Shown here piece by piece: positions 27,830 through 42,212 of a stretch of DNA of 44,060 bases. The DNA comes from Bacteroidales bacterium (GTDB lineage: Bacteria > Bacteroidota > Bacteroidia > Bacteroidales > UBA932). Within the stretch, counting starts at the first letter, position 1, and every line of letters starts with the position of its first letter. The stretch covers positions 1 through 44,060 of the forward strand of contig JAFRXO010000031.1 in assembly GCA_017443465.1 (NCBI GenBank), in the 5' to 3' direction. The translations under genes were made by a program, and so were the position numbers. Below the pieces are notes generated by a model, which was given only the letters and a program-made list of their open reading frames with translations, was not told where the DNA came from and did not search any database.

Positions 27830-28635
27830 ATCTTGTATCTTAATCCTTCACGTACTCCCCTGAAAATCGCCTTCATCTTGCTGCATTTCTGCTTCTCCCC
27901 GAGAAGGATGCGGACCAGGCGTTCCCTGTTGTCCTTGTACTGGACTTTCTTGAGTTCAGCAGTGCATGAAGGATAGGTCCGCATTACGATGAGGGGATTG
28001 CGGTAGATCTCGTAGAGCCGCTTCGGGGGATAATCGAAGATGGTGTAGGGCTTCCCGAGGAATTTCTTGACCGCCTTTTTGCCAAGGGAGTGGGCCAGGT
28101 TCCCAGCATTGATGTGACAGGCCCTGATTCCCAGGGATTTGGAGTGGTAAAGGAATTCAGTGTCAACTGCATCCAGGAAGAAGTCTTCCCTCCATCCGCC
28201 GGTGCGTTCAACCACCGGAAGGGGAATTAGCATGCCGGAATTGATGAGGGCATACTCATCGACGATTTCCGAGGGGAGGAACCTGGAATTGATTACGGGA
28301 CCGCATATGCAGTCAGGAACCTTTGCGGCTGCCTGGATGTAGCCCTCGAAATCCGCGAAACAGGAATCCTGATCCATTATCAGCAGGTGGGTGAAACCTT
28401 CTTCCGAGGCCCGTCCGGCGGCATAGTTATAAGCCTTCGGCAGCCCCACATTCTCCCCGGTTCCGCAGAACTCCACCTTTCCGGCCCATGCCTGCCCATA
28501 TGTCACAGCCTCCTCATCCAGAGGACTGTTCCTCCAGACCAGCAGTTTCCCCACTCCGTCGATGAAGGAGGAGATGTTCCTTCTGAGCACCTCCATGTCC
28601 GGATTGTAGGTTACTATGACGGCAAGTATCTTCAT
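27826..28635 (-). CDS. Family 2 glycosyltransferase (rhamnosyltransferase-like)
   Basis: This 269-residue GT-A enzyme opens with LAVIVTYNPD and has GENVGLPKAYNYAAG and the metal-binding LLIMDQDSCF segment, the pattern of WbbL/RgpF-type rhamnosyltransferases. The donor is inferred only from that resemblance. The start codon shares one base with the stop of the upstream Fe-S/peptidase fusion gene (TAATG), and its stop overlaps the fucosyltransferase start by 4 bp. Confidence 0.9.
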   Translation of the reverse strand: MKILAVIVTYNPDMEVLRRNISSFIDGVGKLLVWRNSPLDEEAVTYGQAWAGKVEFCGTGENVGLPKAYNYAAGRASEEGFTHLLIMDQDSCFADFEGYIQAAAKVPDCICGPVINSRFLPSEIVDEYALINSGMLIPLPVVERTGGWREDFFLDAVDTEFLYHSKSLGIRACHINAGNLAHSLGKKAVKKFLGKPYTIFDYPPKRLYEIYRNPLIVMRTYPSCTAELKKVQYKDNRERLVRILLGEKQKCSKMKAIFRGVREGLRYKI

Positions 28636-30389
28636 TATCTGAGGGCTGTAAGATCTACGTCAACTTTCTCCAGAAGGGGACTCGAGTGCATGTCCTGCGG
28701 GTTCGTTCCGGGAATGTCCTGGGGAATCGGGGATCCGAGGATCCCGAAAAGCTGCACCCAGTAAACCGGGAATTCTCCGTCCGGTCCCTTGAAGTTCATC
28801 GGGTTTGCAGGAAGGATCGGCTTTCCGTCTTTGTCCAGATAGCTGTCCCTGACCAGTTCGGTGCAGTAAGAAGCTCCGTTGTCTGGAAGGAAATTGTTGT
28901 CGTAAGGCTCCCCGATGTGCTTCTTGGCATTTTCCACCAGGTCGCGGGGGCCTTTCTTGAGCCTCATGACTTCGAAGACAGGATAGCTTCCGTCCCTGAG
29001 GGTGAAATCCGTCAGGAAAGTATCCAGGGGGTGCCTGTCTACTCCGTGCGCAAGTGTAGCGTCGATTATCCAGACCTGGCCACCTTCAACTTCAGCTATG
29101 GCGGTGTGTATGTAATTAAGCGGCCCTTCCTTGCCGGTAGCGGCTGCGATTCCGCTGCTCATCGATGTGGAGTCGAGGCTGTAGTCGACCGGAATTCCGA
29201 CGAAAACCAGGTCTCCCGACTTCAGCTGCCTGGAGGTGCATCCAAGGCTGATGAGAGCCGGAACCAGGAGGAGGAACATGCGCAGTATTTTCGATTTAAG
29301 GGTGTGTGCCATTTTGTGGAATCTTGGGAATGTCTTCATGTATTTTTCTTTCAGTATGCTGTGCCTGAGGACTTTCCGGGCGGACTTTGCGAAGCCGTAC
29401 CTTGGATAGAGCGGCAGGAATTTTCCGCGGAGCGGACTCTTGTCGGTAGTTTGGAGAAGGGAAGGCCTGTAGGCTTGCCTATCACTGTACGGGTGCTCTT
29501 CCAATCTGAGTGAAGGGAATGCCTCCCGGATCCTCTCCAGGGCTTTCTCTCCTTTCGGGGTGTTGACCCCGACGAAGGATTTCTGCCCCGGCAGTCCGAT
29601 GAAATCCCCGAGGGTCAGGTCGCCGGTGCGCTGCGGCCTGGCATATGGGCAGGTGTAGCAGTTCTCCCGAAGGCTGAGACCTTCCAGATAGGCCTTGAAA
29701 TATGGCTGTGTGGATGCGCTTTCGCGGTAAATGCATTCGCTGCCGTTCCATAGGGTCAGGAAGAAATCGTCACTGTCGTTGCTTCGGAAGCGTACGTCCG
29801 TAACGTTCTTTTTCCCAATATGTTCAAGTTCGTCATCGAGGTAATTCTGGGGGCATGTCCCATGGCACAGCAGGTCGGCTGTCACCAGGCCTTCAAAGTC
29901 TTTTCCGAGGAAGTTCCTCAGGCCGGCTACTTGGCATGGCCTTCCGGTGAAAACCACTTCCCGGCCTTCCTTGAGAAGGGACCTGATGGAGCTGTAGGCC
30001 TCCGGCGAAAAGCTGCTGTGGACGTATTTCGAGCCTTTGAATTCCTCGGCATCGCCTTCTTTTACGATGGCGTTGAAGTCTTTGTCCCATGCAGTCCCGA
30101 ATGAGTGGTCATATGCTTTGGCGAGAAGGGCGGCGACCCCTCCGGAAGAGCTGCGGCGCCGCTGCGAACTGTCTTCGTTCCATGCCGCGAAGCACTTCGA
30201 AGGCATATGCATTGAAGGCGGGTTGAGGACAGGGCAGGTGTCGGAGCATTGTCCGCATTCCAGGCAGTCCTTCCCTATGACGGGGCGGGTCACCCCGTAT
30301 GCGTCGGGCTGCATGCTGATGCACTGCACCGGGCATATGGCTTCACATGCCCCGCAGGCGCTGCATTTATCTGGAGGACAGAGTCTCAT
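28635..30389 (-). CDS. Fe-S FrhB/F420-dehydrogenase beta-like protein fused in frame to a YiiX-like lipoprotein cysteine peptidase
   Basis: The 584-residue reading frame joins two unrelated proteins. Residues 1-350 form the FrhB/FdhB-type protein usual in pyruvyl-transferase glycan loci: two [4Fe-4S] motifs (Cys9, 12, 15, 19 and Cys42, 45, 48, 52), RSSSGGVAALL, GRPCQVAGLRNFL and ENCYTCPYARPQRTGDLTLGD. Residues about 360-584 form a YiiX/permuted NlpC-P60-like domain with a probable catalytic His in NYIHTAIAEV and Cys in ASYCTELVRDSY. The junction carries a full lipoprotein signal (SKILRMFLLLVPALISLGC, Cys384). Internal ATGs at 29339 and 29312 could start the peptidase separately. No stop codon separates the parts. 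I chose start 30389 because it makes an ATGA overlap with the flippase gene; the longer frame to 30740 is shadow sequence. Confidence 0.8.
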   Translation of the reverse strand: MRLCPPDKCSACGACEAICPVQCISMQPDAYGVTRPVIGKDCLECGQCSDTCPVLNPPSMHMPSKCFAAWNEDSSQRRRSSSGGVAALLAKAYDHSFGTAWDKDFNAIVKEGDAEEFKGSKYVHSSFSPEAYSSIRSLLKEGREVVFTGRPCQVAGLRNFLGKDFEGLVTADLLCHGTCPQNYLDDELEHIGKKNVTDVRFRSNDSDDFFLTLWNGSECIYRESASTQPYFKAYLEGLSLRENCYTCPYARPQRTGDLTLGDFIGLPGQKSFVGVNTPKGEKALERIREAFPSLRLEEHPYSDRQAYRPSLLQTTDKSPLRGKFLPLYPRYGFAKSARKVLRHSILKEKYMKTFPRFHKMAHTLKSKILRMFLLLVPALISLGCTSRQLKSGDLVFVGIPVDYSLDSTSMSSGIAAATGKEGPLNYIHTAIAEVEGGQVWIIDATLAHGVDRHPLDTFLTDFTLRDGSYPVFEVMRLKKGPRDLVENAKKHIGEPYDNNFLPDNGASYCTELVRDSYLDKDGKPILPANPMNFKGPDGEFPVYWVQLFGILGSPIPQDIPGTNPQDMHSSPLLEKVDVDLTALR

Positions 30390-31933
30390 TGCTGCTTCAC
30401 CGGTTTGAGTTCCTTGAATTCGGAGAGCCTTACCTGCCTGGTAGCCAGGAGGATGAGTCCGTAGGGAATGATCCAGCATGCCGTCTTGACCAGGCATATC
30501 AGGATGAATGCGAGCCTGCGGGGCATCCCTCCGAAGGACTCGGGAGAGATCTTGACGACAAGCATGCATATGGCCATTACGGCGAATGCGGTGAGGGTCG
30601 GGGCGAGGAAGGATAAGGCCATCCTGGAGCGGCTCAGCCCCATGAGTTTCCGGTAGTACACCAGATAGTAGGAACCTATGACTATGAGGACGTAGATGAG
30701 GTAGGCGATTACCGCGGACCCGACTCCGAAGTGCCTGCACAGCAGGACGTTGAGTACTATGGAGAGAAGGCAGGCGGCCGCGGTGGTGATTACCAGCGCC
30801 CGGGTCTTACCATATGCTATCACGAGGCTGTTGCCCGGAGTGGTGTGGATCTGGACGAGGACGGTTATGCACCAGAGGATCATCCATATGCCCAGGTGTG
30901 CGTTTTCTTCTCCGACATATGCGCTGAGCATCTCGGAGGCGCAGAGGATGAACGGGACGCAGAGTACGTTGGCTATGACCGAGGTGTATCGGGTCCATTT
31001 GTAGGCGAAGCGTTCGATGCGGTCCTGCTCGCCGCGTGCCACCATCTCGGAGGTGCTGGGGATGAATATGGATGAGAAGGCTCCTCCTATTGTGATGATC
31101 AGGGAGGGGACGACCGAGATTATCTTGAAGTCGGTGAGGGTGTTGGCGGAGTCGGGAATGCAGATGCCAAGCACTATGGGGCGGGATTCGGTGGCGGTCA
31201 CCTGGAAGAATGACAGGGCGAATAGGGAGAGGCTGAAAACCAGTACGACCTTGAACTCAGGCCACCAGAATCCGGGTTTGAAATTGTCGATGAGACGGTC
31301 CCTGCGGCATTTTATCGCATATGGGATGATCAGGGATGCGGTCAGGAGGGTGAGAAGGAAGAAGTACCATTGGAGGGACAACGGTGCCTTCAGGGTTATG
31401 ACTATCAGGACTATCTTGAGAAGGACCTGGACGAACTGCATCTTCTGTGTGAAGGCCATCTGCATGTCCGAGATCAGCAGCTGGCTGAATGTGGAAGCTC
31501 CCCAGCTGAAGACGGACAGGACCGCGATGCTCAGGAGGCACCAGCGCAGGATAAGGAACTGGGAGTGGCTGATCGAGAACAGGCTCTCGCCGCAGAAGGC
31601 CAGAAGCACCATTACCGCGGCGTTGATCAGGGCTACAATCCCGTAGAAGGTGATGTTGGTGTGGGCGACTTTCGAAATCATGTCTCCTTTGCCTTCTGCC
31701 CTCCATCCCGAGAAGAAACGTACGGCTCCGTTGTTGGTTCCGAGGTCCAGTAGGTGCATGTAGGCGTTGCATGACATCGCAAGGGTCAGGATGCCGTATT
31801 CCGCCCTGCCGAACAGCCCCATCAGGAGGGGGACGGAAATGAACCCTACGGCAGCGTTGAGCACCTTCGTGAGGGTGCTCCAGAAGAAAGAGGACAAGTA
31901 GTATCTCTCCCTTTTCACTGCTTTTCCGCTCAT
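30386..31933 (-). CDS. Oligosaccharide flippase (Wzx/PST family)
   Basis: This 515-residue integral membrane protein has about 12-14 hydrophobic segments and the N-terminal pattern of PST/MOP exporters (VLNAAVGFISVPLLMGLFG, then YGILTLAMS). It would move lipid-linked oligosaccharide repeats across the cytoplasmic membrane. It is the second gene of the glycan operon, sharing ATGA overlaps with the pyruvyl transferase upstream and the Fe-S fusion gene downstream. No Wzy-type polymerase is seen in the window, so it may serve a short glycan or the polymerase may be encoded elsewhere. Confidence 0.92.
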   Translation of the reverse strand: MSGKAVKRERYYLSSFFWSTLTKVLNAAVGFISVPLLMGLFGRAEYGILTLAMSCNAYMHLLDLGTNNGAVRFFSGWRAEGKGDMISKVAHTNITFYGIVALINAAVMVLLAFCGESLFSISHSQFLILRWCLLSIAVLSVFSWGASTFSQLLISDMQMAFTQKMQFVQVLLKIVLIVITLKAPLSLQWYFFLLTLLTASLIIPYAIKCRRDRLIDNFKPGFWWPEFKVVLVFSLSLFALSFFQVTATESRPIVLGICIPDSANTLTDFKIISVVPSLIITIGGAFSSIFIPSTSEMVARGEQDRIERFAYKWTRYTSVIANVLCVPFILCASEMLSAYVGEENAHLGIWMILWCITVLVQIHTTPGNSLVIAYGKTRALVITTAAACLLSIVLNVLLCRHFGVGSAVIAYLIYVLIVIGSYYLVYYRKLMGLSRSRMALSFLAPTLTAFAVMAICMLVVKISPESFGGMPRRLAFILICLVKTACWIIPYGLILLATRQVRLSEFKELKPVKQQ

Positions 31934-33027
31934 CTCGTTTCGGCTTTAAGGAAGTCCAGGGATTCCTGGCGCAGGGCACTCAATCTGCTGGAAACCATGT
32001 TGTAATCAATCGGTTCCGGAAGTTCGCCGTTGAAGAAACGGTCCCCGGTACCGAATCTTTCGGCCAGGTCACTGAGCCTGGAGTTCTGGGAGGCCGGATC
32101 CGAGTCGTCGAAACGCTTGAGATTGGCGAACTGCTTCGAGAAATTGATTGAAAGCGCCGTCCCGTGGAAGGAATCGGTCAGTACGTAGGATGCGCCCCTG
32201 AGGGCCTTGATGAATTCCCGCGGTCCTGCGTTGTCCACAAGTGTGACCCCTTGGGGGATGTCGGAGGGGAAGTAGTTGGAGGGAAGCAGGATTGCCTGCC
32301 CGATTCCGGTGAGTTCCATCACTTTCCGGATGGTCTCAGTGTAGTCGGTGGGTTTGCGAAGGAAGTAGCAGAAGATATAGTCTCCGTTTACTGGAGGTAC
32401 AAACGAGGTCTTCCCGGCGAATGAGTCCCATTCCTCGGGGGTGAGGAGGAAAGTGGGGTCCAGGACGGTCCTGATGTCGTCCCTTCCGGTGATTTCCTTG
32501 AGTACCTTCTCCGCATTCTTCTCCCTGACTCCGATGTAGGAGAATTTGCCAAGATAGTCTTTCACCTTCTCCCTGTATTGCTCCGGGATGTCTCCCGTGC
32601 CTATGCTGCTGGCATATGAGACGCGTCTTTTCTTACCTGCGAATCCGAGGAATTCGAAACTCCGGAAATGGTCGTAGCAGTTCCAGATCTGGTCGCTTCC
32701 TGCCATGAATAGGTCTGTTCCCCGGCACATGATCCTGTTCTGGAGACATGTGACCGGCAGCTTGGAGGGAAATTCATCCCTGAAAAGGGACAGGAACTTC
32801 TCTTTCTGCTGCGGATAGGGACAGTCCTGGAGGAGTTTCTTCCGGCGGATTCCGAAGCGGGTGAAGAAATTGACTTTAATGTTCCTGGGGGTGAAAGGCC
32901 ATTCGAAAAAACGGGGGTAATACACGTCGTATCCCTCCCTCAGCAGGGCCTGTCTGAGGGCATATGCCTGAAGCACGGAACCGTAATTCGCTCCGAGATA
33001 CCATGTGACAAGACCGATCGTTTTCAT
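31930..33027 (-). CDS. Polysaccharide pyruvyl transferase family protein
   Basis: This protein of about 365 residues would transfer pyruvate from PEP to a sugar as a ketal, adding negative charge to a surface glycan. It shows the family pattern IGLVTWYLGANYGSVLQAYAL at the N-terminus, MAGSDQIWN in the middle, SYIGVREKNAEKVL, and a C-terminal VLTDSFHGTALSINFSK block. The Met at 33025-33027 is preferred over the one at 33057, which lies upstream of the -7 box (33039-33046). It is the first gene of the six-gene operon and is paired, as usual in Bacteroidota, with an FrhB-like protein. Confidence 0.92.
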   Translation of the reverse strand: MKTIGLVTWYLGANYGSVLQAYALRQALLREGYDVYYPRFFEWPFTPRNIKVNFFTRFGIRRKKLLQDCPYPQQKEKFLSLFRDEFPSKLPVTCLQNRIMCRGTDLFMAGSDQIWNCYDHFRSFEFLGFAGKKRRVSYASSIGTGDIPEQYREKVKDYLGKFSYIGVREKNAEKVLKEITGRDDIRTVLDPTFLLTPEEWDSFAGKTSFVPPVNGDYIFCYFLRKPTDYTETIRKVMELTGIGQAILLPSNYFPSDIPQGVTLVDNAGPREFIKALRGASYVLTDSFHGTALSINFSKQFANLKRFDDSDPASQNSRLSDLAERFGTGDRFFNGELPEPIDYNMVSSRLSALRQESLDFLKAETR

Positions 33028-33038
33028 ATACTTAATTC

Positions 33039-33046
33039 CAAAGTTA
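33039..33046 (-). promoter_or_regulatory. -7 box for the surface-glycan operon
   Basis: TAACTTTG on the minus strand lies 11 nt before the chosen ATG of the pyruvyl transferase gene, predicting a very short leader. A T-rich stretch stands about 20 nt upstream in place of a clear -33 box. Confidence 0.5.
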
Positions 33047-33078
33047 ACTTTTTGCAATGAATTGTGAAAAATTAAATG

Positions 33079-33086
33079 TAAATTTG
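33079..33086 (+). promoter_or_regulatory. -7 box for the cytochrome/SUMF1 operon, predicting a near-leaderless mRNA
   Basis: TAAATTTG fits TAnnTTTG and ends 5 nt before the ATG at 33092. With the usual spacing, transcription would begin at or next to the start codon. The GTG at 33086 is the last base of this box and so is unlikely to be the start. Confidence 0.45.
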
Positions 33087-33091
33087 TGGAG

Positions 33092-34615
33092 ATGTCTCAA
33101 AAGCAGAATGATAAATATTTCCTGATGGGACTGGGCGGGTTCATCTTGCTCCTGGCATGCATGATTGGTTTCAACGTGCTTATGGAGTACACTTCTACGA
33201 ACGCCGCCTGCATGGCCTGTCATGTCCATCCTGATGCGGAGGCACGCTGGAAGCAGTCTGTGCATTACAACAATGCCAGCGGTACCGTTACCGACTGCGC
33301 CAAGTGCCATCTTCCTCCGGCCGGGGATTTCAGGCATCTGGCCGTCAAGGCCCGCTTCGGAGTCACCCACATCTTCGCTTTCCTGACAAAGAAGAAATCG
33401 AACATAGACTGGCACAAGATGCAGACCCTGGAGCACGCCAGGAAGACCGTTTTCAACGAGTCTTGCGAGGCTTGCCACGTCAATCTCTATCCCCAGGGCA
33501 TCACTGATGACGGAATAACGGCCCATCTCTATTACGATGACAACAAGGCTACAGCTGATCTGGACTGCATAAGCTGCCACCTCGATGCCGGACATTTCCT
33601 GGAAGGCTACAAGCACGAGAAGATGACTGGAAAGGTGGACACCGGTTCCGGAGAGATATTCTCTTCCGCCGCCGAGGTGGACGGATTCAGGGACTTCACC
33701 GAGACTGTGCCGGGGACTCCGGCTTCCATTTCCATGATAGCTGTCCCGGGAGGTACGTTCCGGATGGGAAGTGATGAAAAAGAACCTTTCCGCCGTGAGG
33801 ATGAGTCTCCGGTCAGGGAGGTGACGGTTTCTTCGTTCTTCATGAGCGAGGTGGAGGTCACCTGGAACCAATACTGGGCTTTCTACAACGAGACCATGTC
33901 CGAGGGACGCACTCCTCCTTCGGTGGTATATGCCAACAATTCCCGTTCGGACGTGGATGCGGTCACAGGACCTACTCCTCCGTTCGGTTTCCCGGACCAT
34001 GGATGGGGAATGGGCGACCGTCCGGCTATCACTATGTCGCATTATGCTGCCGAGACATTCTGCCAGTGGCTTTCCCTCAAGACTGGAAGGACTTACCGCC
34101 TGCCTACGGAGGCTGAGTGGGAGTATGCCGCACGTGGCGGCACGGACTCTCCGTATTTCTTCGAGGGCAGTCCCAAGGCATTCTCTTCCAATGGCTTCTG
34201 GAAGAAATTCTCCAAGCCTTCCACCGATCCGATAGGCCGTTATGCGGTCTATGCCGCGAACAGCGGGGACAAGACTCAGGAGCCCTCGTCCGTAGAGGCC
34301 AACCCGTTCGGACTCAAGAATATGCTCGGAAACGTGATGGAGTACTGCTCTGACTGGTATGCTGCCGATGCATATGCTTCAGGAGAGACCGTGAACCCGA
34401 AAGGCCCCTCTGAAGGTACAGAGTATGTTGTCAGGGGCGGAAACTACAGCGATGATGCTTCGCAGCTGCGCTGCGCCGCGCGTTCGCATACTGAAAATGA
34501 CGCATGGCTCAAGACTGACCCCCAGAATCCCAAGAGCATATGGTGGTATTCCGACATTGTCGGGATAGGGTTCAGGGTCGTCTGCGAGGTGCCTGAAGGA
34601 ATTGACGTGAACTGA
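33092..34615 (+). CDS. Tetrahaem NapC/NrfH-like cytochrome c fused to a SUMF1/FGE-like domain
   Basis: The product is about 507 residues. Numbered from the GTG at 33086 (two residues longer), an N-terminal membrane anchor (about 11-33) is followed by four CxxCH haem motifs (CMACH 42-46, CAKCH 71-75, CEACH 127-131, CISCH 161-165), the layout of NapC/NrfH quinol dehydrogenases. From about 214 to the end is a formylglycine-generating-enzyme-like domain (AVPGGTFRMGSDEKEPF, YRLPTEAEWEYAARGG, NVMEYCSDWY, EYVVRGGNYSDD, GIGFRVV). The paired catalytic Cys residues of true FGE after the RGG(S/N) turn are absent (RGGNYSDDASQLRCAARS), so sulfatase maturation is unlikely; the domain may bind a ligand or be a non-haem iron relative. 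It faces the periplasm. It is the first gene of an operon with the two Tat-exported proteins downstream (30-nt gap). Confidence 0.87.
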   Translation: MSQKQNDKYFLMGLGGFILLLACMIGFNVLMEYTSTNAACMACHVHPDAEARWKQSVHYNNASGTVTDCAKCHLPPAGDFRHLAVKARFGVTHIFAFLTKKKSNIDWHKMQTLEHARKTVFNESCEACHVNLYPQGITDDGITAHLYYDDNKATADLDCISCHLDAGHFLEGYKHEKMTGKVDTGSGEIFSSAAEVDGFRDFTETVPGTPASISMIAVPGGTFRMGSDEKEPFRREDESPVREVTVSSFFMSEVEVTWNQYWAFYNETMSEGRTPPSVVYANNSRSDVDAVTGPTPPFGFPDHGWGMGDRPAITMSHYAAETFCQWLSLKTGRTYRLPTEAEWEYAARGGTDSPYFFEGSPKAFSSNGFWKKFSKPSTDPIGRYAVYAANSGDKTQEPSSVEANPFGLKNMLGNVMEYCSDWYAADAYASGETVNPKGPSEGTEYVVRGGNYSDDASQLRCAARSHTENDAWLKTDPQNPKSIWWYSDIVGIGFRVVCEVPEGIDVN

Positions 34616-34645
34616 AATCAAACTACTTTAAAACAATAATCAATT

Positions 34646-36004
34646 ATGAGCAAAACAATCAATCGCAGGGACTTTCTCTCATATTCCGCCGCCCTCGGCG
34701 CGACCGGTCTTGTAGGAAGCAGCCTTCTGACTGCATGCGGTCCCAAGAAGGATAAACTTGTCCCGCTCCGTGAGCGCGGAACATACTATGTGCCTGAACT
34801 CACGGACAAGGCTATCGAGGGGAAACCCCTCAAGGTCGGTGTCATCGGTTGCGGCGGACGCGGCTCAGGAGCTATCATCAACCTCCTCGACGCAGCTGAC
34901 GGAATCACCGTTACAGCCCTCGGAGACACTTATGAGGACCGTCTCCAGAATCTCCGCAAATCCCTCATCGAGAAGAAGGGTCAGGAAGTTCCCGAAGCAA
35001 ATTGCTTCGTAGGCTTCGACGCTTACAAGAAGGTCATCGATTCCGGTGTCGACATGGTGATCGTTGCCACTCCTCCGGTATTCCGTCCCGTCCACTTCCA
35101 GTATGCTACCGAAAAGGGTGTACACTCCTTCCTGGAGAAACCTATCGCAGTCGATGCAAAGGGTTACCGCACCATCATGGCCACTGCAAAGCAGGCCGCA
35201 GCCAAGGGACTTTCCGTTGTCACCGGTACCCAGCGTCACCATCAGCGTCCTTATGTCGAGGCTTACCAGCTGATCTCCGACGGTGTGATCGGCGAGATCA
35301 CCGGCGGTAATGTCTATTGGAACCAGGGTATGCTCTGGTACCGTGAGAGGCAGAAGGACTGGAGCGACATGGAGTGGATGATCCGTGACTGGGTCAACTG
35401 GAAATGGCTCTCCGGAGACCACATCGTCGAGCAGCATGTGCACAACATCGACGTGTTCATGTGGATGATCGGCAAGCACCCCCTCAAGGCTACGGGTGTC
35501 GGAAGCCGCCAGAGGCGTATCACCGGCGACCAGTATGACAACTTCAGCATCGATTTCGAATTCGAGAACAATGTCCACCTGCACAGCATGTGCCGCCAGA
35601 TAGACGGCTGTGCCAACAATGTCAGCGAGTTCGTACAGGGTACGAAGGGTTCTTGGAACAGCGCCAAGCACGAGATTGTCGACCTCCAGGGCAATGTCAT
35701 CTGGAAGTTCGACGCCGAAGCTGAGAAGGCCGAGCATTCCCAGACCAATCCCTACGTCCTCGAGCACGTGGACTGGGTCAACCATATCCGCAGGGGCGAG
35801 GCACACGAAGAGGCTTCCGAGACCGGTACTTCCAGCCTGGCAGGCGTCATGGGACGTGAGGCTGCCTACACCGGAAAGACCGTTGACTGGGACACCATCA
35901 GCGCCTCCGACATGGATTACATGCCCGCCGTCCTCGAGAACGGCCGCATGGACATGAGTTCATATGTCGTAAGGGTTCCCGGAGCTCCAAAGGAGAAGAA
36001 ATAA
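34646..36004 (+). CDS. Tat-exported Gfo/Idh/MocA family oxidoreductase
   Basis: This 452-residue NAD(P)-dependent sugar oxidoreductase has a twin-arginine signal (NRRDFLSYSAALGATG) ending in a possible lipobox (LLTAC). Export by Tat suggests that it folds with its cofactor before crossing the membrane. The Rossmann motif is VGVIGCGGRGSGAI, the catalytic Lys lies in FLEKPIAVDAKGY, and EQHVHNIDVFMWM supplies the conserved His/Asp, so the active site appears intact. Exported members of this family oxidise or reduce sugar hydroxyls, including at C3 of glycosides. The next gene follows after 4 nt. Confidence 0.92.
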   Translation: MSKTINRRDFLSYSAALGATGLVGSSLLTACGPKKDKLVPLRERGTYYVPELTDKAIEGKPLKVGVIGCGGRGSGAIINLLDAADGITVTALGDTYEDRLQNLRKSLIEKKGQEVPEANCFVGFDAYKKVIDSGVDMVIVATPPVFRPVHFQYATEKGVHSFLEKPIAVDAKGYRTIMATAKQAAAKGLSVVTGTQRHHQRPYVEAYQLISDGVIGEITGGNVYWNQGMLWYRERQKDWSDMEWMIRDWVNWKWLSGDHIVEQHVHNIDVFMWMIGKHPLKATGVGSRQRRITGDQYDNFSIDFEFENNVHLHSMCRQIDGCANNVSEFVQGTKGSWNSAKHEIVDLQGNVIWKFDAEAEKAEHSQTNPYVLEHVDWVNHIRRGEAHEEASETGTSSLAGVMGREAAYTGKTVDWDTISASDMDYMPAVLENGRMDMSSYVVRVPGAPKEKK

Positions 36005-36008
36005 GCAT

Positions 36009-36920
36009 ATGGACAGGAGACAATTCCTTCACAGTTCGATCGCCGGCGCGGCAGTGGTCGCCGCCGGCGCTTCTCCGCTGGCCGTTACTGCCTGCGGCAG
36101 TGCAGCTGACAAGGGCAAGAAAGCCCTTGGCCAGCTGAATATATCTTTCCAGGAAGGTACAGCTCCCGGCAAATCCCTCGCCGAGAAGTTCGACTTCATG
36201 GAGAAACTCGGTGTCACCGGATTCGAGCCGGGCGGAAAGGGCCTCGGAGACAGGGTCCAGGAAATCAAGGACGCCCTCAGCGGCCGCAATATCAAGGTCT
36301 CGGCCATATGCGCCGGATTCGACGGTTTCATCCTCGCCGAGGATCCCGCTGTCAAGGAGGCCTTCGACACCAGCATGCGCCGTATCATCGATGCTGCCGG
36401 AGAACTGGGTTCCACAGGAGTGATCATGGTCCCTGCTTTCAACAGGCAGGTGCCCTGCAAGCCTCACAACCAGGAGACAAGGGACTATCTCTGCGCCCAG
36501 CTTCATGAACTCGGAGAATATGCCAAGGCACATGGTACTACAGTGATCCTCGAGCCCCTTAACCGCAAGGAAGCCTTCTATATGCGTCTGGTTGCCGATG
36601 CAGCCGCCATTGCGCGCGATGCGGACAGCGACGGAGTGAAGTGCATGGGCGACTTCTGGCATATGCAGGAAGAGGTCTCTGACTATGGCGCTTTCTGGTC
36701 CGCAGGCAAATATCTGCAGCACGTCCACATCGCCAGCCGCGGTCGTCGCAAGACTCCGACCGAGGATGGTGAACTGGATAACTATGTAGATGGTTTCCGC
36801 GCCCTGAAGGAAATGGGCTACGACAAGTATGTCAGTTTCGAGTGCGGGTGCGTGGGAGACAAGAATGTAGTCCTTCCCGCTGCAGTCCAGCTTCTCCGCG
36901 ACCAGTGGGAGCAGGCCTAG
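36009..36920 (+). CDS. Tat-exported sugar phosphate isomerase/epimerase-like TIM barrel
   Basis: The 303-residue protein has a Tat signal (MDRRQFLHSSIAGAAVVAAG) with a lipobox-like VTAC. The AP endonuclease-2/xylose isomerase-like barrel shows metal-ligand candidates: Glu in VILEPLNRKEAF, Asp and His in GDFWHMQ, His in HVHIASRGR and Glu in VSFECGC. These exported barrels act on sugars, for example isomerising or cleaving keto-sugar intermediates, and commonly neighbour Gfo/Idh/MocA genes. The ATG lies inside a CATATG. The TAG stop shares a CTAG palindrome with the stop of the convergent DUF3737 gene. Confidence 0.9.
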   Translation: MDRRQFLHSSIAGAAVVAAGASPLAVTACGSAADKGKKALGQLNISFQEGTAPGKSLAEKFDFMEKLGVTGFEPGGKGLGDRVQEIKDALSGRNIKVSAICAGFDGFILAEDPAVKEAFDTSMRRIIDAAGELGSTGVIMVPAFNRQVPCKPHNQETRDYLCAQLHELGEYAKAHGTTVILEPLNRKEAFYMRLVADAAAIARDADSDGVKCMGDFWHMQEEVSDYGAFWSAGKYLQHVHIASRGRRKTPTEDGELDNYVDGFRALKEMGYDKYVSFECGCVGDKNVVLPAAVQLLRDQWEQA

Positions 36921-37768
36921 GAGTTTTCCCTGATCTCTATCCTGCAGTCGCCTGGAGCGCGCAGGAAGCTGTCAATAGTGACTGAACCTACCGCATCGGC
37001 TCGTATGTAGCCGGTGCGGGGGTTTTTTATATTGGTGATGCTTCCCTTGATCTCTGCATGGAGGGAGGAATCCTCGAATGCCCTGTCGCATGCTGGATCG
37101 AATGTACAGTCCTCGAGAACAAGGTCTTCAGTGTAGCATAGAGGCTGTTCTCCGGCAATGTGGCAGCGCACCAGGCGGAGATTCTTCGAGTGCCATCCGA
37201 GGTATTCTCCGTCCAGTACGGAGTCGTATATGGTCACGTTCTCCGTCTCCCAGAACGAATCCTTGGTGACAATCTTGGCATTGCGTACCGTCACGTTCTT
37301 CACGTACTGGAAAACGTATTTCGAGTCGCTCACAAGGCCGTCCACATCCACGTCTTCGCAGAACATGAAGGGGTAGGTGCCGTCGTGGAGGGTAAGGTTC
37401 CTTACCTTGAGCCCTTTGACTTCCCAGAAGGTTTCGTCTGCGTCGTTCATCACCACATTCTCTACGGTGAGCCCGGACATCTCCCTGAAGAACTTCGGGG
37501 CGTCGATGACGCAGTCCTTCATCACCATGTTGTCAGAATACCATATGGCGCTCCTGGAGCCGGGGGCGAAGTAGCAGTTGGTGATGAGGGAACCATCGAC
37601 ATGCCACCAGGGATATTTCCCTATGAATTTGCAGCTGTCGGCTTCGATGTTACGGCAGAATTTTATGCCGGATTCCCCGTCGGTTATGGTGATGCCTTCA
37701 AGCCGGGCATCCTGCAGGCCGAATAACGGGCGTTCTCCGCCGAAAGTCATGTCTTTGAATAGTTTCAT
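36917..37768 (-). CDS. DUF3737 family protein, right-handed beta-helix
   Basis: This 283-residue cytoplasmic-looking protein has repeated short beta strands of the form xxVxNxxxxDxxFxE, typical of a right-handed parallel beta helix, and matches the DUF3737 pattern (KYPWWHVDGSLITNCYF, then SRSAIWYSDNMVMKDC). Function is unknown. It is the third gene of the asnA-MATE-DUF3737 run, 3 nt after the MATE stop. Its start codon is part of a CATATG. Confidence 0.85.
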   Translation of the reverse strand: MKLFKDMTFGGERPLFGLQDARLEGITITDGESGIKFCRNIEADSCKFIGKYPWWHVDGSLITNCYFAPGSRSAIWYSDNMVMKDCVIDAPKFFREMSGLTVENVVMNDADETFWEVKGLKVRNLTLHDGTYPFMFCEDVDVDGLVSDSKYVFQYVKNVTVRNAKIVTKDSFWETENVTIYDSVLDGEYLGWHSKNLRLVRCHIAGEQPLCYTEDLVLEDCTFDPACDRAFEDSSLHAEIKGSITNIKNPRTGYIRADAVGSVTIDSFLRAPGDCRIEIRENS

Positions 37769-37771
37769 ATG

Positions 37772-39181
37772 TCAATCATTTTTATATTTGTCCATCCATT
37801 TGCTGCCGCGCAGCCTCATTATGAAGAGGAGTCCGCGCACATTCAGGTCCACGCACATCGCAATCCAGAATCCTGCCAGTCCCAGGGAAGGAATCAGCAG
37901 GAGTGACAGCCCGATACGGACCAGCCATATGCTTCCGAAGTTGATGAAACTGGGGACGAGGGTGTCTCCCGCTCCTACGCAAATTGCGTACCCTACTATG
38001 GCCGCGGCAAAGCCTGCTTCGGCGAAACATTCTATCCTCAGCACCTTGGCTCCGAGATCGATTACGGCCTGCTCAGGTGACATCAGTCCTATGAGCCATG
38101 GCGCCGTAAAGAACATGATTACGGACAGGAAACTCATTATGGAAATCCCTTCCGTCAGGGTGATGCGCTTGAAGCCCTTTGCCAGGTTCTTCCTCCCGGC
38201 TCCCAGGCTCTGGCCCACCAGCGAAGTAGCTGCGTCCCCGATGCCGTATCCGGGCATGTAGCAGAAGCTCTCTGCCGTAATGGCGAAGGAATTGGCGGCG
38301 ATGGCTATCGTCCCCAGGGGTGCGACAATCGCAGTGCTGGCTACGTTCGCGCCCCTGATCACCAGACTCTGAAGGCCCATCGGAAGGCTTATGCTTGCGG
38401 CATTCTTCAGGCACTTTGAAGTCGGTATGAAGCTTCCTCTCTCGTGATTGATCTTCAGTTCTTTGGATTGGAAGAGTATATAGTAAAGGAACAGGATTAC
38501 GACTACCAGTTCGGCGCATCCGCTTCCAAGTGCGGCTCCTTTTACACCCAGGCCAGCCCCCCAGACAGTGACTCCTCCTATCTCTCGTGTGGGAAATATG
38601 AGGAAGAAATTGAAGATTACATCCAAGACGCACATCAGGACATTCAGGATGCTGGGCACTTTCATATTCCCGCTGCTCTGGAGCATCCCGGAGCACAGGG
38701 CCTCGAATTGAAGCGCAGGGATGAATGCCATCATTATCATGAAGTAAGCGCTGGAATCGGCGCATATGCTTTCATTCCCTCCGAGCCAGCGGGGAAGGTA
38801 CGGGCCGATGCATATGCCTGTTGCGGCGAGAAAGAGTCCGAGCAGGAGCAGGGAAGTCATGGCCTGCCGCAGGACGGACCTGGCGCTCTTGAAATCATTC
38901 GCTCCAATCAGATGAGCTACCTGTACATAGAATCCCGCCGCTCCTGCAAAGCAGAAACTGCCGAACATCCACAGGGCCGTGGATACAAGGCCGATCGAAG
39001 CCGCAGGACCGGCGCCGAGGCTGCCGACCATCGCTGCATCGATGAACTGCATCATTATGGATGACAGCTGTGCGATCATTGCCGGGGCACTCAGGATCAG
39101 CGTCAGCTTGAACTGCTGACGCGTGCTCATGGGTTGTCCCGTGCGGATTTTTTCTAGAAGAAGGGCCCTTTCTCCAGCCAT
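37772..39181 (-). CDS. MATE family efflux transporter
   Basis: This 469-residue polytopic inner-membrane protein has about 12 hydrophobic segments in two MatE repeats. The first repeat contains IMMQFIDAAMVGSLG and the second APLGTIAIAANSFAITAESF and GIGDAATSLVGQSLGAG, the Na+ or H+ drug antiporter pattern. The substrate is unknown. An internal Met at residue 18 (MSTRQQFKL) is a plausible alternative start. It lies 3 nt after asnA. Confidence 0.92.
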   Translation of the reverse strand: MAGERALLLEKIRTGQPMSTRQQFKLTLILSAPAMIAQLSSIMMQFIDAAMVGSLGAGPAASIGLVSTALWMFGSFCFAGAAGFYVQVAHLIGANDFKSARSVLRQAMTSLLLLGLFLAATGICIGPYLPRWLGGNESICADSSAYFMIMMAFIPALQFEALCSGMLQSSGNMKVPSILNVLMCVLDVIFNFFLIFPTREIGGVTVWGAGLGVKGAALGSGCAELVVVILFLYYILFQSKELKINHERGSFIPTSKCLKNAASISLPMGLQSLVIRGANVASTAIVAPLGTIAIAANSFAITAESFCYMPGYGIGDAATSLVGQSLGAGRKNLAKGFKRITLTEGISIMSFLSVIMFFTAPWLIGLMSPEQAVIDLGAKVLRIECFAEAGFAAAIVGYAICVGAGDTLVPSFINFGSIWLVRIGLSLLLIPSLGLAGFWIAMCVDLNVRGLLFIMRLRGSKWMDKYKND

Positions 39182-39184
39182 ATG

Positions 39185-40222
39185 TCAGACTAGCTGGATG
39201 CCGGCGCTTTCACAGCGCTCTCTCATTTCCTGCGGCCATATGCTTGACTGGATCTCTCCGATGTGGGCTTTGCGCAGGAAATACATGCAGAGCCTGGACT
39301 GTCCGATTCCGCCTCCGATGGTGCAGGGGAGTTCGCCCCCCAGGAGCCTGCGATGGAAATAGAGATCCTTCTTGTACTCCATCCCATGCTCTTTAAGCTG
39401 CCTCATCATGGAGGTTTCATCGACCCTTATACCCATGCTGGAAATCTCGAACGAGCTGTCCAGCACTTCATTCCACAGGAGGATGTCGCCGTTGAGGCCC
39501 GGATAGCCTTTTTCTCCCGGGGTGCTCCAGTCATCGTAGTCGGCGGCCCTTCCGTCGTGGATGCTTCCGTCCGACAGCTTCCCGCCTATGCCTATGATGA
39601 AAACGGCCTTGTGCTCGCGCACGATCGCGTTCTCCCTCTCCTTGGGACTCAGGTCCGGATACATATCCAGAAGCTCCTGTGAGTGGATGAAGAATATGTC
39701 GTCAGGGAGGTGGGGGACAAGCTGAGGGAACTCGACATAGAGCCTGTTGCCCGTGACCTTCACAGCCTCGTATATGCGTTTGACTGTCTTTTTCAGGAAT
39801 TCGATATTGCGGTCTTCCCTGCGGATTACCTGTTCCCAGTCCCACTGGTCTACGTACACCGAGTGGGTGTTGTCCAGGTCTTCGTCAGGCCTGAGGGCGT
39901 TCATGTCGGTGTAGATCCCCCTTCCTGGAGCGAGCCCGAGTTCTGCCAGCTTGAGCCTTTTCCATTTGGCCAGGGAGTGGACTACCTCTGCGGAGGCGTC
40001 CTGCATGCTCTTGACAGGAAAGCGGACAGGCCTTTCAACCCCGTTCAGGTCATCATTGATTCCGGTTCCGGAAGGAACGATCATTGGTGCGGTGACGCGG
40101 AGGAGCACCAGCTGGGCGGACAGGTTCTCCTGGAACATGTCCTTTACGGCCTTGATGGCCTTCTCTGTGTTTTCGGTGCTGCCGAGAAGATTATGGTAAC
40201 CGGCGGGGATGAAAAGAGACAT
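39185..40222 (-). CDS. asnA: Aspartate-ammonia ligase
   Basis: AsnA makes L-asparagine from aspartate, ammonia and ATP through a beta-aspartyl-AMP intermediate. The 345 residues match the family, which resembles the class II aminoacyl-tRNA synthetase core: RVTAPMIVPSGTGINDDLNG, EVVHSLAKWKRLKL, YVDQWDWEQVI and the C-terminal GGGIGQSRLCMYFL. It uses ammonia rather than glutamine, and ammonia is a product of the nearby hut pathway. A well-formed promoter lies upstream (40243-40273). Confidence 0.96.
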   Translation of the reverse strand: MSLFIPAGYHNLLGSTENTEKAIKAVKDMFQENLSAQLVLLRVTAPMIVPSGTGINDDLNGVERPVRFPVKSMQDASAEVVHSLAKWKRLKLAELGLAPGRGIYTDMNALRPDEDLDNTHSVYVDQWDWEQVIRREDRNIEFLKKTVKRIYEAVKVTGNRLYVEFPQLVPHLPDDIFFIHSQELLDMYPDLSPKERENAIVREHKAVFIIGIGGKLSDGSIHDGRAADYDDWSTPGEKGYPGLNGDILLWNEVLDSSFEISSMGIRVDETSMMRQLKEHGMEYKKDLYFHRRLLGGELPCTIGGGIGQSRLCMYFLRKAHIGEIQSSIWPQEMRERCESAGIQLV

Positions 40223-40242
40223 TGCTTTATCTGTTGTTTATG

Positions 40243-40273
40243 CAAAAATATCTCATTTTCCGGTACTTTCAAA
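40243..40273 (-). promoter_or_regulatory. Promoter of the asnA-MATE-DUF3737 operon
   Basis: The minus strand shows TTTG (40270-40273), exactly 19 nt, then TATTTTTG (40243-40250), a full match to the Bacteroidota promoter. The predicted leader is about 15 nt. Confidence 0.78.
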
Positions 40274-40287
40274 TTCTAATCGTTTAA

Positions 40288-40315
40288 GGAACTGTTTTGA
40301 ATCCAAAACAGTTCC
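40288..40315 (-). terminator. Hairpin downstream of recQ, probable terminator
   Basis: GGAACTGTTTTG (40288-40299) and CAAAACAGTTCC (40304-40315) form a perfect 12-bp stem with a 4-nt loop, 11 nt past the recQ stop. Only TT follows it directly on the minus strand, so termination may be inefficient. Confidence 0.6.
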
Positions 40316-40325
40316 AGAAGGTGTT

Positions 40326-42212
40326 TCAGTGTCTGTACGGAGGGACGGTTCCGTCATCTATAAGTTCCCGGAGAAGTTCGACCCAATCCGGCGACCAGCC
40401 GGCTCCGGGGACGTCAAACACTGCTTTCAGGCCTTCAAGGGTGTAGGTTCCTGTCTTCGAAATAGTCGCGATCAGTCCGCTCCGTGTGATGTCCCGGAGT
40501 CTCTCGTCCTCGCCCTTGAGGCGGCATACGTCGCATGTGCCGCAGTCTGAAGTCTTCTCCTGCCCGAAATATTCCAGCATGAAACGGGACCTGCACTTAT
40601 CTGTCTGCGAAGCATATGCCTTCATGGCTTCGGCCCTCCTGTCCCAGCAGTCCCTAAGCATGGCATATTTCTCAGGTTGCAGGTTGACGTTCCCGGGGCG
40701 GAGCCTGGGATGCTTCAGGAAGATTACGTCGGCCCTGTCGTTAGGGATATATGAGATTACGTGCTCCAGGGAGAGGCGGTAAAGCGTCTGCCGGAACTGG
40801 GGGACCGTCATCCCGCATTTCGAGGAGATGTAGTCCTCATCGATCCTGACCGCAAAGGAGAATATACCGCTGTAATTCCGCATCAGGGTCTCCAGTACCA
40901 GGAGCATGCTTTCTTCCGGAAGGTCGGTGTAATAGAGGGCGTTACGGTCCACCTTGATCTTGACCCTCGTCTCGATCTCTATATCCTCCGAATAGGTCCA
41001 GTGACCGCACTGCTCCAGATATTTCATCGCGTGGAAGACTCCGGACCTGTCTTTCAGGCCAAAGTGCTTGCAGAATTCGTCCAGGTTGAATTTCAGCTGC
41101 CTCCCTTCGCCCGCGTCATACGGGATTTCGAAGAATATGTGGACTTTGTGATAGATGTCTTCGATGAACTCCAGGGAGGGGAAGGTGACTTCCCTGATCT
41201 GGCTCAGGCGCCTGGTGTCGGTGCCGTTCCAGATGAGCACGGCATATGATCTCTTTCCGTCGCGCCCGGCCCTCCCGGCTTCCTGGAAATAGGCTTCCGG
41301 ACTTTCCGGGATGTCATAATGTACTACAAAGCGCACGTCCGCCTTGTCGATTCCCATTCCGAAGGCATTGGTGCAGACCATGACGCGTATCTTGCCTCTT
41401 TTCCAGGCTTCCTGCCTCTCGGCGCGTGCCTGTGTCCCCAGGCCGGCATGGTAGAATGAGGATTCGACTCCTTCCGCGGAGAGCATGGCGGAAACTTCTT
41501 CGCATCTGATCCGGTTCCGGCAATAGACTATACCGCTCCCCGGTACGCCTTTGCATATGTTCAGGAGCTGGCCGTTCTTGTCTTCGGCCTTCCGGACTAT
41601 ATATGAAAGGTTGGGCCTCTCGAATCCGCTCTTTATCAGAAGCTTCTCCTTGAAGCGGAGCTTTTCCATTATATCGTCTGCGACTTCGGGGGTGGCTGTG
41701 GCGGTAAGCGCTATGACGGGAGCGTCTATGCTGGAGCGGAGCTGGCCGATATTGAGGTAGTCCGGGCGGAAATCATATCCCCACTGGGATATGCAGTGTG
41801 CCTCGTCAACCACTATCCGGCTTATTCCGAGGACGGGGACATATGACTGGAAGAGCCTTGTGGAGAGCCTCTCAGGGCTGAGGTAGAGGAATTTGTAGTC
41901 GCCGTACGCGGCGTTGTTGAAGGCGAGGTCCACTTCGCTCCGGTTCATCCCGGCGTGGATCGCCATGGCCCTTATGCCGCGGTCGGTGAGGTTCTGGACC
42001 TGGTCCTTCATCAGGGCCACCAGAGGAGTTACCACCAGGGTGAGCCCGTCAGTCATCATTGCCGGGACCTGGAAGCATATGGATTTGCCTCCTCCGGTGG
42101 GCAGGATGGCCAGGACATCCCTTCCTTCCAGCGTGGCGGAGATGACCTTCTCCTGCATCGGCCGGAACGAGTCATAGCCCCAGTATTTCTTCAAAACCTC
42201 AAGCGCAGTCAT
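40326..42212 (-). CDS. recQ: ATP-dependent DNA helicase RecQ
   Basis: RecQ is a 3'-5' DNA helicase for recombination and fork repair. The 628 residues carry the Q-motif region YWGYDSFRPMQ, Walker A PTGGGKS (38-44), DEAHCISQWGYDFRP (motif II and the aromatic loop), motif VI QEAGRAGRDGKRS, and the RecQ zinc-binding Cys set ending SDCGTCDVC. After the zinc and winged-helix regions the C-terminus is short, and I do not see a convincing HRDC domain. The start codon lies in a CATATG, 4 nt downstream of a TATCTTTG box. Confidence 0.96.
   Translation of the reverse strand: MTALEVLKKYWGYDSFRPMQEKVISATLEGRDVLAILPTGGGKSICFQVPAMMTDGLTLVVTPLVALMKDQVQNLTDRGIRAMAIHAGMNRSEVDLAFNNAAYGDYKFLYLSPERLSTRLFQSYVPVLGISRIVVDEAHCISQWGYDFRPDYLNIGQLRSSIDAPVIALTATATPEVADDIMEKLRFKEKLLIKSGFERPNLSYIVRKAEDKNGQLLNICKGVPGSGIVYCRNRIRCEEVSAMLSAEGVESSFYHAGLGTQARAERQEAWKRGKIRVMVCTNAFGMGIDKADVRFVVHYDIPESPEAYFQEAGRAGRDGKRSYAVLIWNGTDTRRLSQIREVTFPSLEFIEDIYHKVHIFFEIPYDAGEGRQLKFNLDEFCKHFGLKDRSGVFHAMKYLEQCGHWTYSEDIEIETRVKIKVDRNALYYTDLPEESMLLVLETLMRNYSGIFSFAVRIDEDYISSKCGMTVPQFRQTLYRLSLEHVISYIPNDRADVIFLKHPRLRPGNVNLQPEKYAMLRDCWDRRAEAMKAYASQTDKCRSRFMLEYFGQEKTSDCGTCDVCRLKGEDERLRDITRSGLIATISKTGTYTLEGLKAVFDVPGAGWSPDWVELLRELIDDGTVPPYRH

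Follow-up and report, generated by a model that had tools for sequence, protein, structure and literature searches.

Three consecutive genes in a 44,060-nucleotide stretch of DNA from a Bacteroidales bacterium (contig JAFRXO010000031.1; hereafter the window) form a real, conserved unit. All three lie on the forward strand, in the order P1, P2, P3, with gaps of 30 nt and 4 nt. P1 encodes a tetrahaem NapC/NrfH-type cytochrome fused to an FGE/SUMF1-like domain, P2 a Gfo/Idh/MocA oxidoreductase with a twin-arginine translocation (Tat)-type signal and P3 a xylose-isomerase-like TIM barrel, also with Tat and lipobox motifs. We propose, tentatively and at slightly under even chances, that P1, P2 and P3 work as one mechanism, a modular and exported system that oxidises sugars and is linked to the quinone pool. 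The first-pass annotation of this DNA, made from its letters, had given the three genes, their order, gaps and motifs as we found them.

We examined conservation of the unit in two samples. The near loci were the best 80 of 208 P1 relatives in GTDB genomes, found by exact peptide patterns, a selection that favours close relatives. P2 follows P1 in 79 of these 80 loci, the single miss being a contig that ends 17 bp past P1, and P3 is present in trio order in 77, the three misses being contig ends no more than 17 bp past the last gene seen. The order sample comprised 295 evenly sampled genomes, with thresholds of E below 1e-70 for P2 and E below 1e-50 for a P3 orthologue. The fusion was found in 38 genomes, P2 in 39 and both in 38 (Fisher p 3.5e-47), G552 being the sole P2-bearing genome without the fusion. 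We counted 44 P1 copies (43 with the haem part, together with G624:C197, which has SUMF1 only; the haem-only matches G546 and G624:C171 were excluded), and 39 of them have P2 immediately downstream in the same orientation. P2 is more numerous, with at least 65 copies and as many as five in one genome, from a search that scored at most five candidates per genome. A P3 orthologue was present in 18 of the 295 genomes, all 18 of which carry the fusion. The expectation that the fusion would sit beside the other two genes thus held for P2, which is a near-obligate neighbour, and failed in part for P3, whose orthologue occurs in 18 of the 38 fusion genomes, several others having a different TIM barrel next to P2.

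We next considered P1. It matched PF03264 (NapC/NrfH) with E 1.6e-22 and 80.5 bits, over the curated cut-off of 24.1, and PF03781 with E 2.7e-42. Its predicted structure (mean predicted local distance difference test score (pLDDT) 80.5) matched the folds of FGE and PvdO. Among 103 aligned P1 sequences, for which 26 far fusion proteins had been pre-filtered for exactly four CxxCH motifs, four such motifs are present in 102, including the window protein, and three in the remaining one. The first haem motif reads CxxCHxH in all 103, in contrast to the CxxCHxM of D. vulgaris NrfH, whose Met we take to be the haem-1 ligand. The equivalent of NrfH Lys82 (K86 in P1) is kept in 103 of 103 sequences, and that of Asp89 (position 93) is Asp in 99, with His in the window protein and three relatives; we assume that Lys82 and Asp89 are the quinol-site residues of NrfH. 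The copper-binding catalytic Cys pair of FGE is not present in P1 in a profile alignment to the FGE of PDB 6s07. The two Pfam matches and this alignment bear out the earlier description of P1 as a NapC/NrfH-like tetrahaem protein fused to an FGE-like domain lacking the Cys pair. The SUMF1 half of P1 is better conserved than the haem half (mean identity 0.68 versus 0.53). Two assignments were rejected: P1 as an FGE or sulfatase maturation enzyme, which the absent Cys pair rules out, and P1 as an NrfH with a nitrite-reductase neighbour, its gene neighbour being P2 and no such reductase being seen there, NrfA not having been searched for in the genome. The window genome holds a second NapC/NrfH-type match (L144, C41:25-252; 45.9 bits), a fragment at a contig edge.

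P2 matched Pfam GFO_IDH_MocA, and its predicted structure (mean pLDDT 89.5) matched inositol dehydrogenases, glucuronide 3-dehydrogenase and GH109, the last including a structure with bound nicotinamide adenine dinucleotide (NAD; 6t2b). Its profile matches include glucose-fructose oxidoreductase (GFOR). The Rossmann glycines G68 and G70, Asp94, K165 and the H266 and D269 of the HxxD motif are invariant in 52 of 52 aligned sequences; we take K165 to be the catalytic lysine of this family, and Asp94 presumably marks NAD-type preference. A Tat-like stretch of the form R[RK]xF occurs in 104 of 105 P2 sequences and the strict form RRx[FLIVM] in 78. P2 was also compared with NCBIfam model NF058561, by which BT2158 is named a glycoside 3-dehydrogenase; with 24.4 bits for a cut-off of 750, P2 is ruled out as a BT2158 orthologue.

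P3 matched Pfam AP_endonuc_2 and aligned closely with PDB 3kws (E 1e-123) and more distantly with YcjR, a 3-keto-D-glucoside 4-epimerase (PDB 6wn6; E 4e-23). The E-D-H-E positions of YcjR-like barrels, which we take to be the metal ligands in YcjR, are kept in P3 as E182, D215, H240 and E278. P3 reached no NCBIfam epimerase cut-off. All 72 P3 sequences have an R[RK]xF Tat-like stretch, and in 49 of them it fits the strict RRx[FLIVM] pattern. Judged by motifs, the active sites of both enzymes are as intact as the first-pass annotation had thought (K165 and H266 in 52 of 52 P2 sequences; the four YcjR positions in P3), and its Tat and lipoprotein export signals and anchored haems are likewise borne out. 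Among NCBIfam models for named enzymes, none is matched above its cut-off by P1, P2 or P3; the one model that P2 passes is the Tat-signal model.

The more distant loci indicate which parts of the unit belong together. In far neighbourhoods, gene assignments come from BLAST comparison with named references and, for selected genes, from Pfam; cluster names in near loci are the Pfam assignment of one member each. Across the far fusion loci (L102-L127), P2 is mostly kept and P3 is swapped for other TIM barrels or no barrel is recognised. These other barrels adjoin P2 or P1, on either strand, in L102, L104, L109-L112, L115 and L120. Lone P2 paralogues have such neighbours in five of the 19 stretches read, standing beside TIM barrels in L158, L166, L169 and L171 and beside a 3-keto-disaccharide-hydrolase-like gene in L162. 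Thirteen loci with a haem-less SUMF1 protein were read in other orders and classes of the phylum; a P2 homologue follows it in eight of them, and an L120-type TIM barrel lies nearby in five of the 13, four of these being among the eight. The 13 loci represent 13 of the 47 phylum-sample genomes with a match to the SUMF1 part only, chosen mostly as the best-scoring. P2 proteins linked to haem-less SUMF1 seem to be without a lipobox. In a midpoint-rooted tree, the SUMF1 domains of 40 fusions fall into a single clade with support 0.79, separate from the 13 haem-less ones, and the P2 proteins split in the same way. The haem fusion is thus one clade, found mainly in Bacteroidales and also in one genome of another class. 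Over 92 P1-P2 pairs (those of the 103 P1 sequences with P2 in reach), the partial correlation of SUMF1 with P2 distances given the haem domain was 0.66 and that of the haem domain with P2 given SUMF1 was 0.23, values that are uncorrected for shared descent and include noisier distances for the shorter haem domain. No signature columns of P2-linked SUMF1 were found in a comparison with only five unlinked proteins, a weak test. We read the SUMF1 domain as a probable partner surface for P2, and the haems as an addition, because P2 distances track SUMF1 more closely and the haem-less SUMF1 proteins keep P2. The suggestion of the first-pass annotation that this domain is a docking module gains support from the same two observations.

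From these features and the gene neighbourhoods we infer a bound NAD, a sugar substrate, the C3 position, docking, an electron direction and a step that takes hydride electrons to haem. P2 would take up NAD while folding in the cytoplasm, leave through the Tat pathway and stay attached by a lipid. Outside the cytoplasm it would oxidise a sugar or glycoside at one of its hydroxyls, most likely that at C3. The SUMF1 domain of P1 would be its docking site, and the four P1 haems would carry the electrons to menaquinone in the membrane, returning P2 to its oxidised state. P3, as a metal-dependent TIM barrel, would then epimerise or eliminate the 3-keto product. Elsewhere another TIM barrel or a 3-keto-disaccharide hydrolase may take the role of P3, and one P1 may serve several P2 paralogues. 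We favour the oxidative direction because of the redox potentials, the NAD(H) potential being far below that of menaquinone, and because of cydAB in six loci: a cydA-cydB-EEP run lies 5' of P1 on the same strand in 6 of 80 near loci, its EEP (endonuclease/exonuclease/phosphatase-family) gene ending 35-51 nt before P1, so that cydAB in the P1 gene run fits electrons being delivered to the quinone pool. Of the near loci, 72 extend far enough past P3 to look for cytochrome c assembly genes, and in 47 of these ResB- and CcsA-like genes begin no more than 1 kb beyond P3 (the L006 pair was checked by Pfam). The window genome has CcsA elsewhere (C51), preceded by a gene without a family match.

A 3-keto-glycoside link, which had been suspected at the outset, is consistent with the similarity of P3 to YcjR and with genes for PF06439 (3-keto-disaccharide hydrolase) and BT2158-like Gfo proteins near P2 in some loci. 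A PF06439 gene adjoins P2 in L121, and the L120 cluster contains a fusion of PF06439 with a TIM barrel. L108 is a single run of P1, P2, a BT2158-like Gfo gene (162 bits, cut-off 750), a TIM-like gene and a further Gfo gene. The window genome itself has 12 PF06439 matches over cut-off, and 3 of 14 control genomes have any. On its contig C76 (L182, 5578-8371), the gene for a Tat-exported BT2158-like Gfo protein (262 bits, below the cut-off of 750) comes immediately before one whose product matches 3-keto-disaccharide hydrolase twice.

Several observations weigh against a single sugar-oxidising mechanism. Five of the 44 P1 copies lack a P2 directly downstream: P2 lies on the same strand 3-5 kb further along the cluster in G481 and G668, a P2 copy stands tail to tail beside P1 in G481 and G581, P2 is about 9 kb from P1 in G504:C24, and no P2 was found in the stretch read of G660:C210. 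The two halves of P1 can part, G624:C197 having SUMF1 without haems and G546 and G624:C171 being haem-only matches, and 20 of 38 fusion genomes have no P3 orthologue. The system is accessory, being present in 38 of the 295 genomes of the order; the fusion occurs in 3 of 395 genomes of the phylum sample (one of the three, L120, from another class), and the trio system was not found in the sampled same-genus genome G402. PF06439 is loosely linked in near loci, with 11 of 80 having it and none adjacent to the trio; three of these genes are found some 6 kb downstream of P1, and the other eight are on the upstream side, on the opposite strand and separated from the trio by other genes. The C3 chemistry cannot be read from P2 itself, because of its score of about 24 bits against the BT2158 model, and the window P1 has His in place of the Asp of the NrfH quinol site. 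Cytochromes of the NapC/NrfH family usually draw electrons from quinol, and direct transfer from NADH to haem without a flavin is chemically unusual. In the loci read, no flavoprotein is a regular member of the cluster. The weak point of the mechanism is the hydride-to-one-electron step, with no flavin in the cluster.

These points leave room for other explanations. P2 may be redox-neutral overall, like GH109 or enzymes of a BT2158-type pathway, with P1 merely rescuing an enzyme stranded with NADH outside the cytoplasm. The GH109 fold match with bound NAD, the BT2158-like or 3-keto-hydrolase-like neighbours in several loci and the lack of a dedicated flavin mediator would all suit such a role, but a mere rescue factor would not be expected to occur in 38 of 39 P2 genomes and to have P2 immediately after it in 39 of 44 copies, and we consider this explanation rather unlikely. 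Electrons may instead run from menaquinol through the haems to P2-bound NAD and on to a keto sugar or related compound, an electron sink resembling NrfH-NrfA. NapC/NrfH proteins are as a rule menaquinol dehydrogenases, and the quinol-site residues, with the Lys invariant and the Asp in 99 of 103 sequences, match those of NrfH. However, menaquinol cannot easily reduce NAD because of the potentials given above, and the cydAB genes in the P1 run of six loci fit electrons entering the quinone pool; we judge the reductive direction to be unlikely.

It is less probable still that P1 has oxidoreductase activity of its own in its FGE-like domain, in the manner of PvdO, with electrons received or given through the fused haems, and that P2 and P3 carry out separate steps on the same compound. 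PvdO is among the closest folds and profiles of this domain, which is also the better conserved half of P1, but the Cys pair of FGE is gone, P1 scores 83 bits against a PvdO model with a cut-off of 500, and the dependence on P2 is near absolute. The remaining alternative, that the genes are chance or hitch-hiking neighbours with no functional link, would suit the accessory distribution within the order. It is contradicted by co-occurrence and adjacency across many genera, and the pairing of haem-less SUMF1 with a P2 homologue persists in other orders and classes; we regard it as highly improbable.

We compared the trio with characterised systems. LacA is a GMC flavoprotein with a cytochrome subunit. 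In one study, LacABC of Caulobacter oxidises lactose in the periplasm to a 3-keto sugar and DUF1080 proteins are proposed to hydrolyse 3'-ketolactose (PMC9007349). The trio resembles LacABC in the proposed membrane-bound periplasmic 3-oxidation of glycosides and in DUF1080 (PF06439) genes near the dehydrogenase (PMC9007349), but a Gfo/Idh/MocA enzyme and an NrfH-SUMF1 fusion replace the GMC flavoprotein and cytochrome. No LacA-type flavoprotein subunit was found by Pfam in the trio or among nine window genes (30389-42212), and the trio is not a member of the LacABC family because this subunit is missing. By analogy, the trio appears to work like the periplasmic respiratory glycoside 3-oxidation of LacABC, with other proteins. 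The same study calls BT2157 of Bacteroides thetaiotaomicron a 3-ketotrehalose hydrolase (PMC9007349). The BT2156-BT2160 cluster shares with our loci a Gfo/Idh/MocA dehydrogenase with DUF1080, and a BT2158-like gene stands in fusion cluster L108; it differs in that P2 is far under the BT2158 model cut-off. We know of no cytochrome in that cluster.

The epimerase YcjR of E. coli is partnered by YcjS. For levoglucosan (LgdA/LgdB1/LgdB2/LgdC), one report describes the isomerase-annotated LgdB1 and LgdB2 as acting on 3-keto sugars after the LgdA dehydrogenase (PMC7676230). In both systems a 3-dehydrogenase is paired with proteins that are annotated as isomerases and have 3-keto sugars as substrates. 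P3 aligns to the first of these systems through YcjR, but P2 and P3 of the trio carry Tat signals and have a haem partner, whereas YcjR and Lgd enzymes are cytoplasmic or were assayed with added NAD. P1 shares with NrfH/NapC (PDB 2j7a) the N-terminal anchor, four CxxCH motifs and the quinol-site Lys, and differs in its CxxCHxH motif, its fused SUMF1 domain and a gene partner that is a putative sugar dehydrogenase and not a nitrite or nitrate reductase. The P1 SUMF1 domain has the fold of FGE, PvdO and GldK, but has no Cys pair, carries fused haems and stays under all NCBIfam cut-offs; PvdO, among its closest folds and profiles, is named a dihydropyoverdine dehydrogenase in NCBIfam. Glucose-fructose oxidoreductase is an exported Gfo/Idh/MocA enzyme with a held NADP, which it recycles on a second sugar. 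P2 resembles it in being Tat-exported, and the trio differs by the proposed haem partner. NCBIfam has no model naming a NapC-SUMF1 fusion, and among the matches listed for open-licence PMC articles none describes the fusion or the trio in its title or the start of its abstract.

A broader possibility, which we regard as doubtful, is that the unit is a respiratory hub. The SUMF1 domain would be a docking port for a family of NAD-holding exported Gfo/Idh/MocA enzymes, each with its own substrate, delivering electrons flavin-free to a quinone reductase with four haems; the haems would be a later addition to the port, fused to it once. SUMF1 proteins beside Gfo/Idh genes across Bacteroidota would then be electron-transfer partners and not sulfatase-modifying enzymes. 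If the proposed sugar-oxidation mechanism holds, some gut and rumen Bacteroidales would oxidise sugars outside the cytoplasm and pass the electrons straight into menaquinone, joining respiration to glycan degradation on the outer side of the inner membrane. A class of FGE-like proteins now annotated in connection with sulfatase modification would gain a function, and the unit would show how a nicotinamide enzyme can operate in a place that has no NAD pool. P1, P2 and P3 are three named proteins to make and test together, P3 having a close relative of known structure (3kws).

The features of the trio are collected below. The ATG given there for P1 is the likelier start codon, with a GTG at 33086 as the alternative. 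The first-pass annotation had begun the three-gene stretch at 33079, which is not a coding start: positions 33079-33086 are the sequence TAAATTTG, which we take to be a Bacteroidota-type -7 box. It sits in the short spacer that P1 shares with a divergent capsule-type gene. The strict two-box promoter of Bacteroidota (TTTG 17-23 bases upstream) has four matches in the window and none before P1, where the -7 box stands alone. The upstream neighbour of P1 is a divergent gene of pyruvyl transferase type (Pfam), and the downstream neighbour of P3 is a convergent DUF3737 gene; the trio thus stands alone in the window, since one flanking gene is divergent and the other convergent.

Features of the P1-P2-P3 unit (window coordinates; the end of each gene is the end of its stop codon)
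Feature	Position	Strand	Details
Promoter-like -7 box of Bacteroidota type (presumed), TAAATTTG	33079..33086	+	5 nt 5' of P1 ATG
P1, tetrahaem NapC/NrfH-type cytochrome with FGE/SUMF1-like fusion	33092..34615	+	507 aa; Pfam, alignments, fold
P1 predicted N-terminal membrane helix, residues 3-33	33098..33190	+	AlphaFold2 helix; hydrophobic sequence
P1 haem motif 1, CMACH, residues 40-44, then H46	33209..33223	+	sequence; H46 in 103/103 aligned
P1 haem motif 2, CAKCH, residues 69-73	33296..33310	+	sequence; conserved
P1 haem motif 3, CEACH, residues 125-129	33464..33478	+	sequence; conserved
P1 haem motif 4, CISCH, residues 159-163	33566..33580	+	sequence; conserved
P1 FGE/SUMF1-like domain without catalytic Cys pair, residues 214-468	33731..34495	+	PF03781, FGE alignment, fold
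P2, Gfo/Idh/MocA oxidoreductase, Tat-type signal RRDF, lipobox LTAC	34646..36004	+	452 aa; Pfam, fold
P2 EKP motif, E164-K165-P166, with catalytic-type lysine	35135..35143	+	invariant in 52/52
P3, Tat/lipobox xylose-isomerase-like TIM barrel	36009..36920	+	303 aa; near PDB 3kws, farther from YcjR

Further genes were seen around the trio and its relatives. Window positions 27826-33057 hold divergent genes resembling those for capsule or exopolysaccharide synthesis, a flippase and a pyruvyl transferase being recognised by Pfam and a glycosyltransferase by eye. The EEP gene between cydAB and P1 occurs in L006, L008, L011, L012, L027 and L031, and a weak EEP-family match (23.1 bits, cut-off 24.4) lies beside a lone P2 in L161. 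A WbuC-type cupin gene stands between P2 and P3 in at least 12 of the 80 near loci, mostly from Alistipes (for example, L037, 11111-11605; TIGR04366, 151 bits). A further Gfo/Idh/MocA gene lies 87-299 nt 5' of P1 on the same strand in 14 of the 80, as in L029 (6621-7793), where it has no Tat signal; relatives occur in L108, L118, L121 and L138. In L155 (G432:C53, 5002-9233), a P2 paralogue has as neighbours a cytochrome with nine CxxCH motifs and a GMC flavoprotein. This arrangement is reminiscent of LacABC-type dehydrogenases and may represent another electron path for the P2 family. P2 copies in L154 (1682-4389) and L114 (5490-8284) adjoin a flavoprotein of the pyridine nucleotide-disulphide oxidoreductase type, a candidate mediator between NADH and haem in some genomes.

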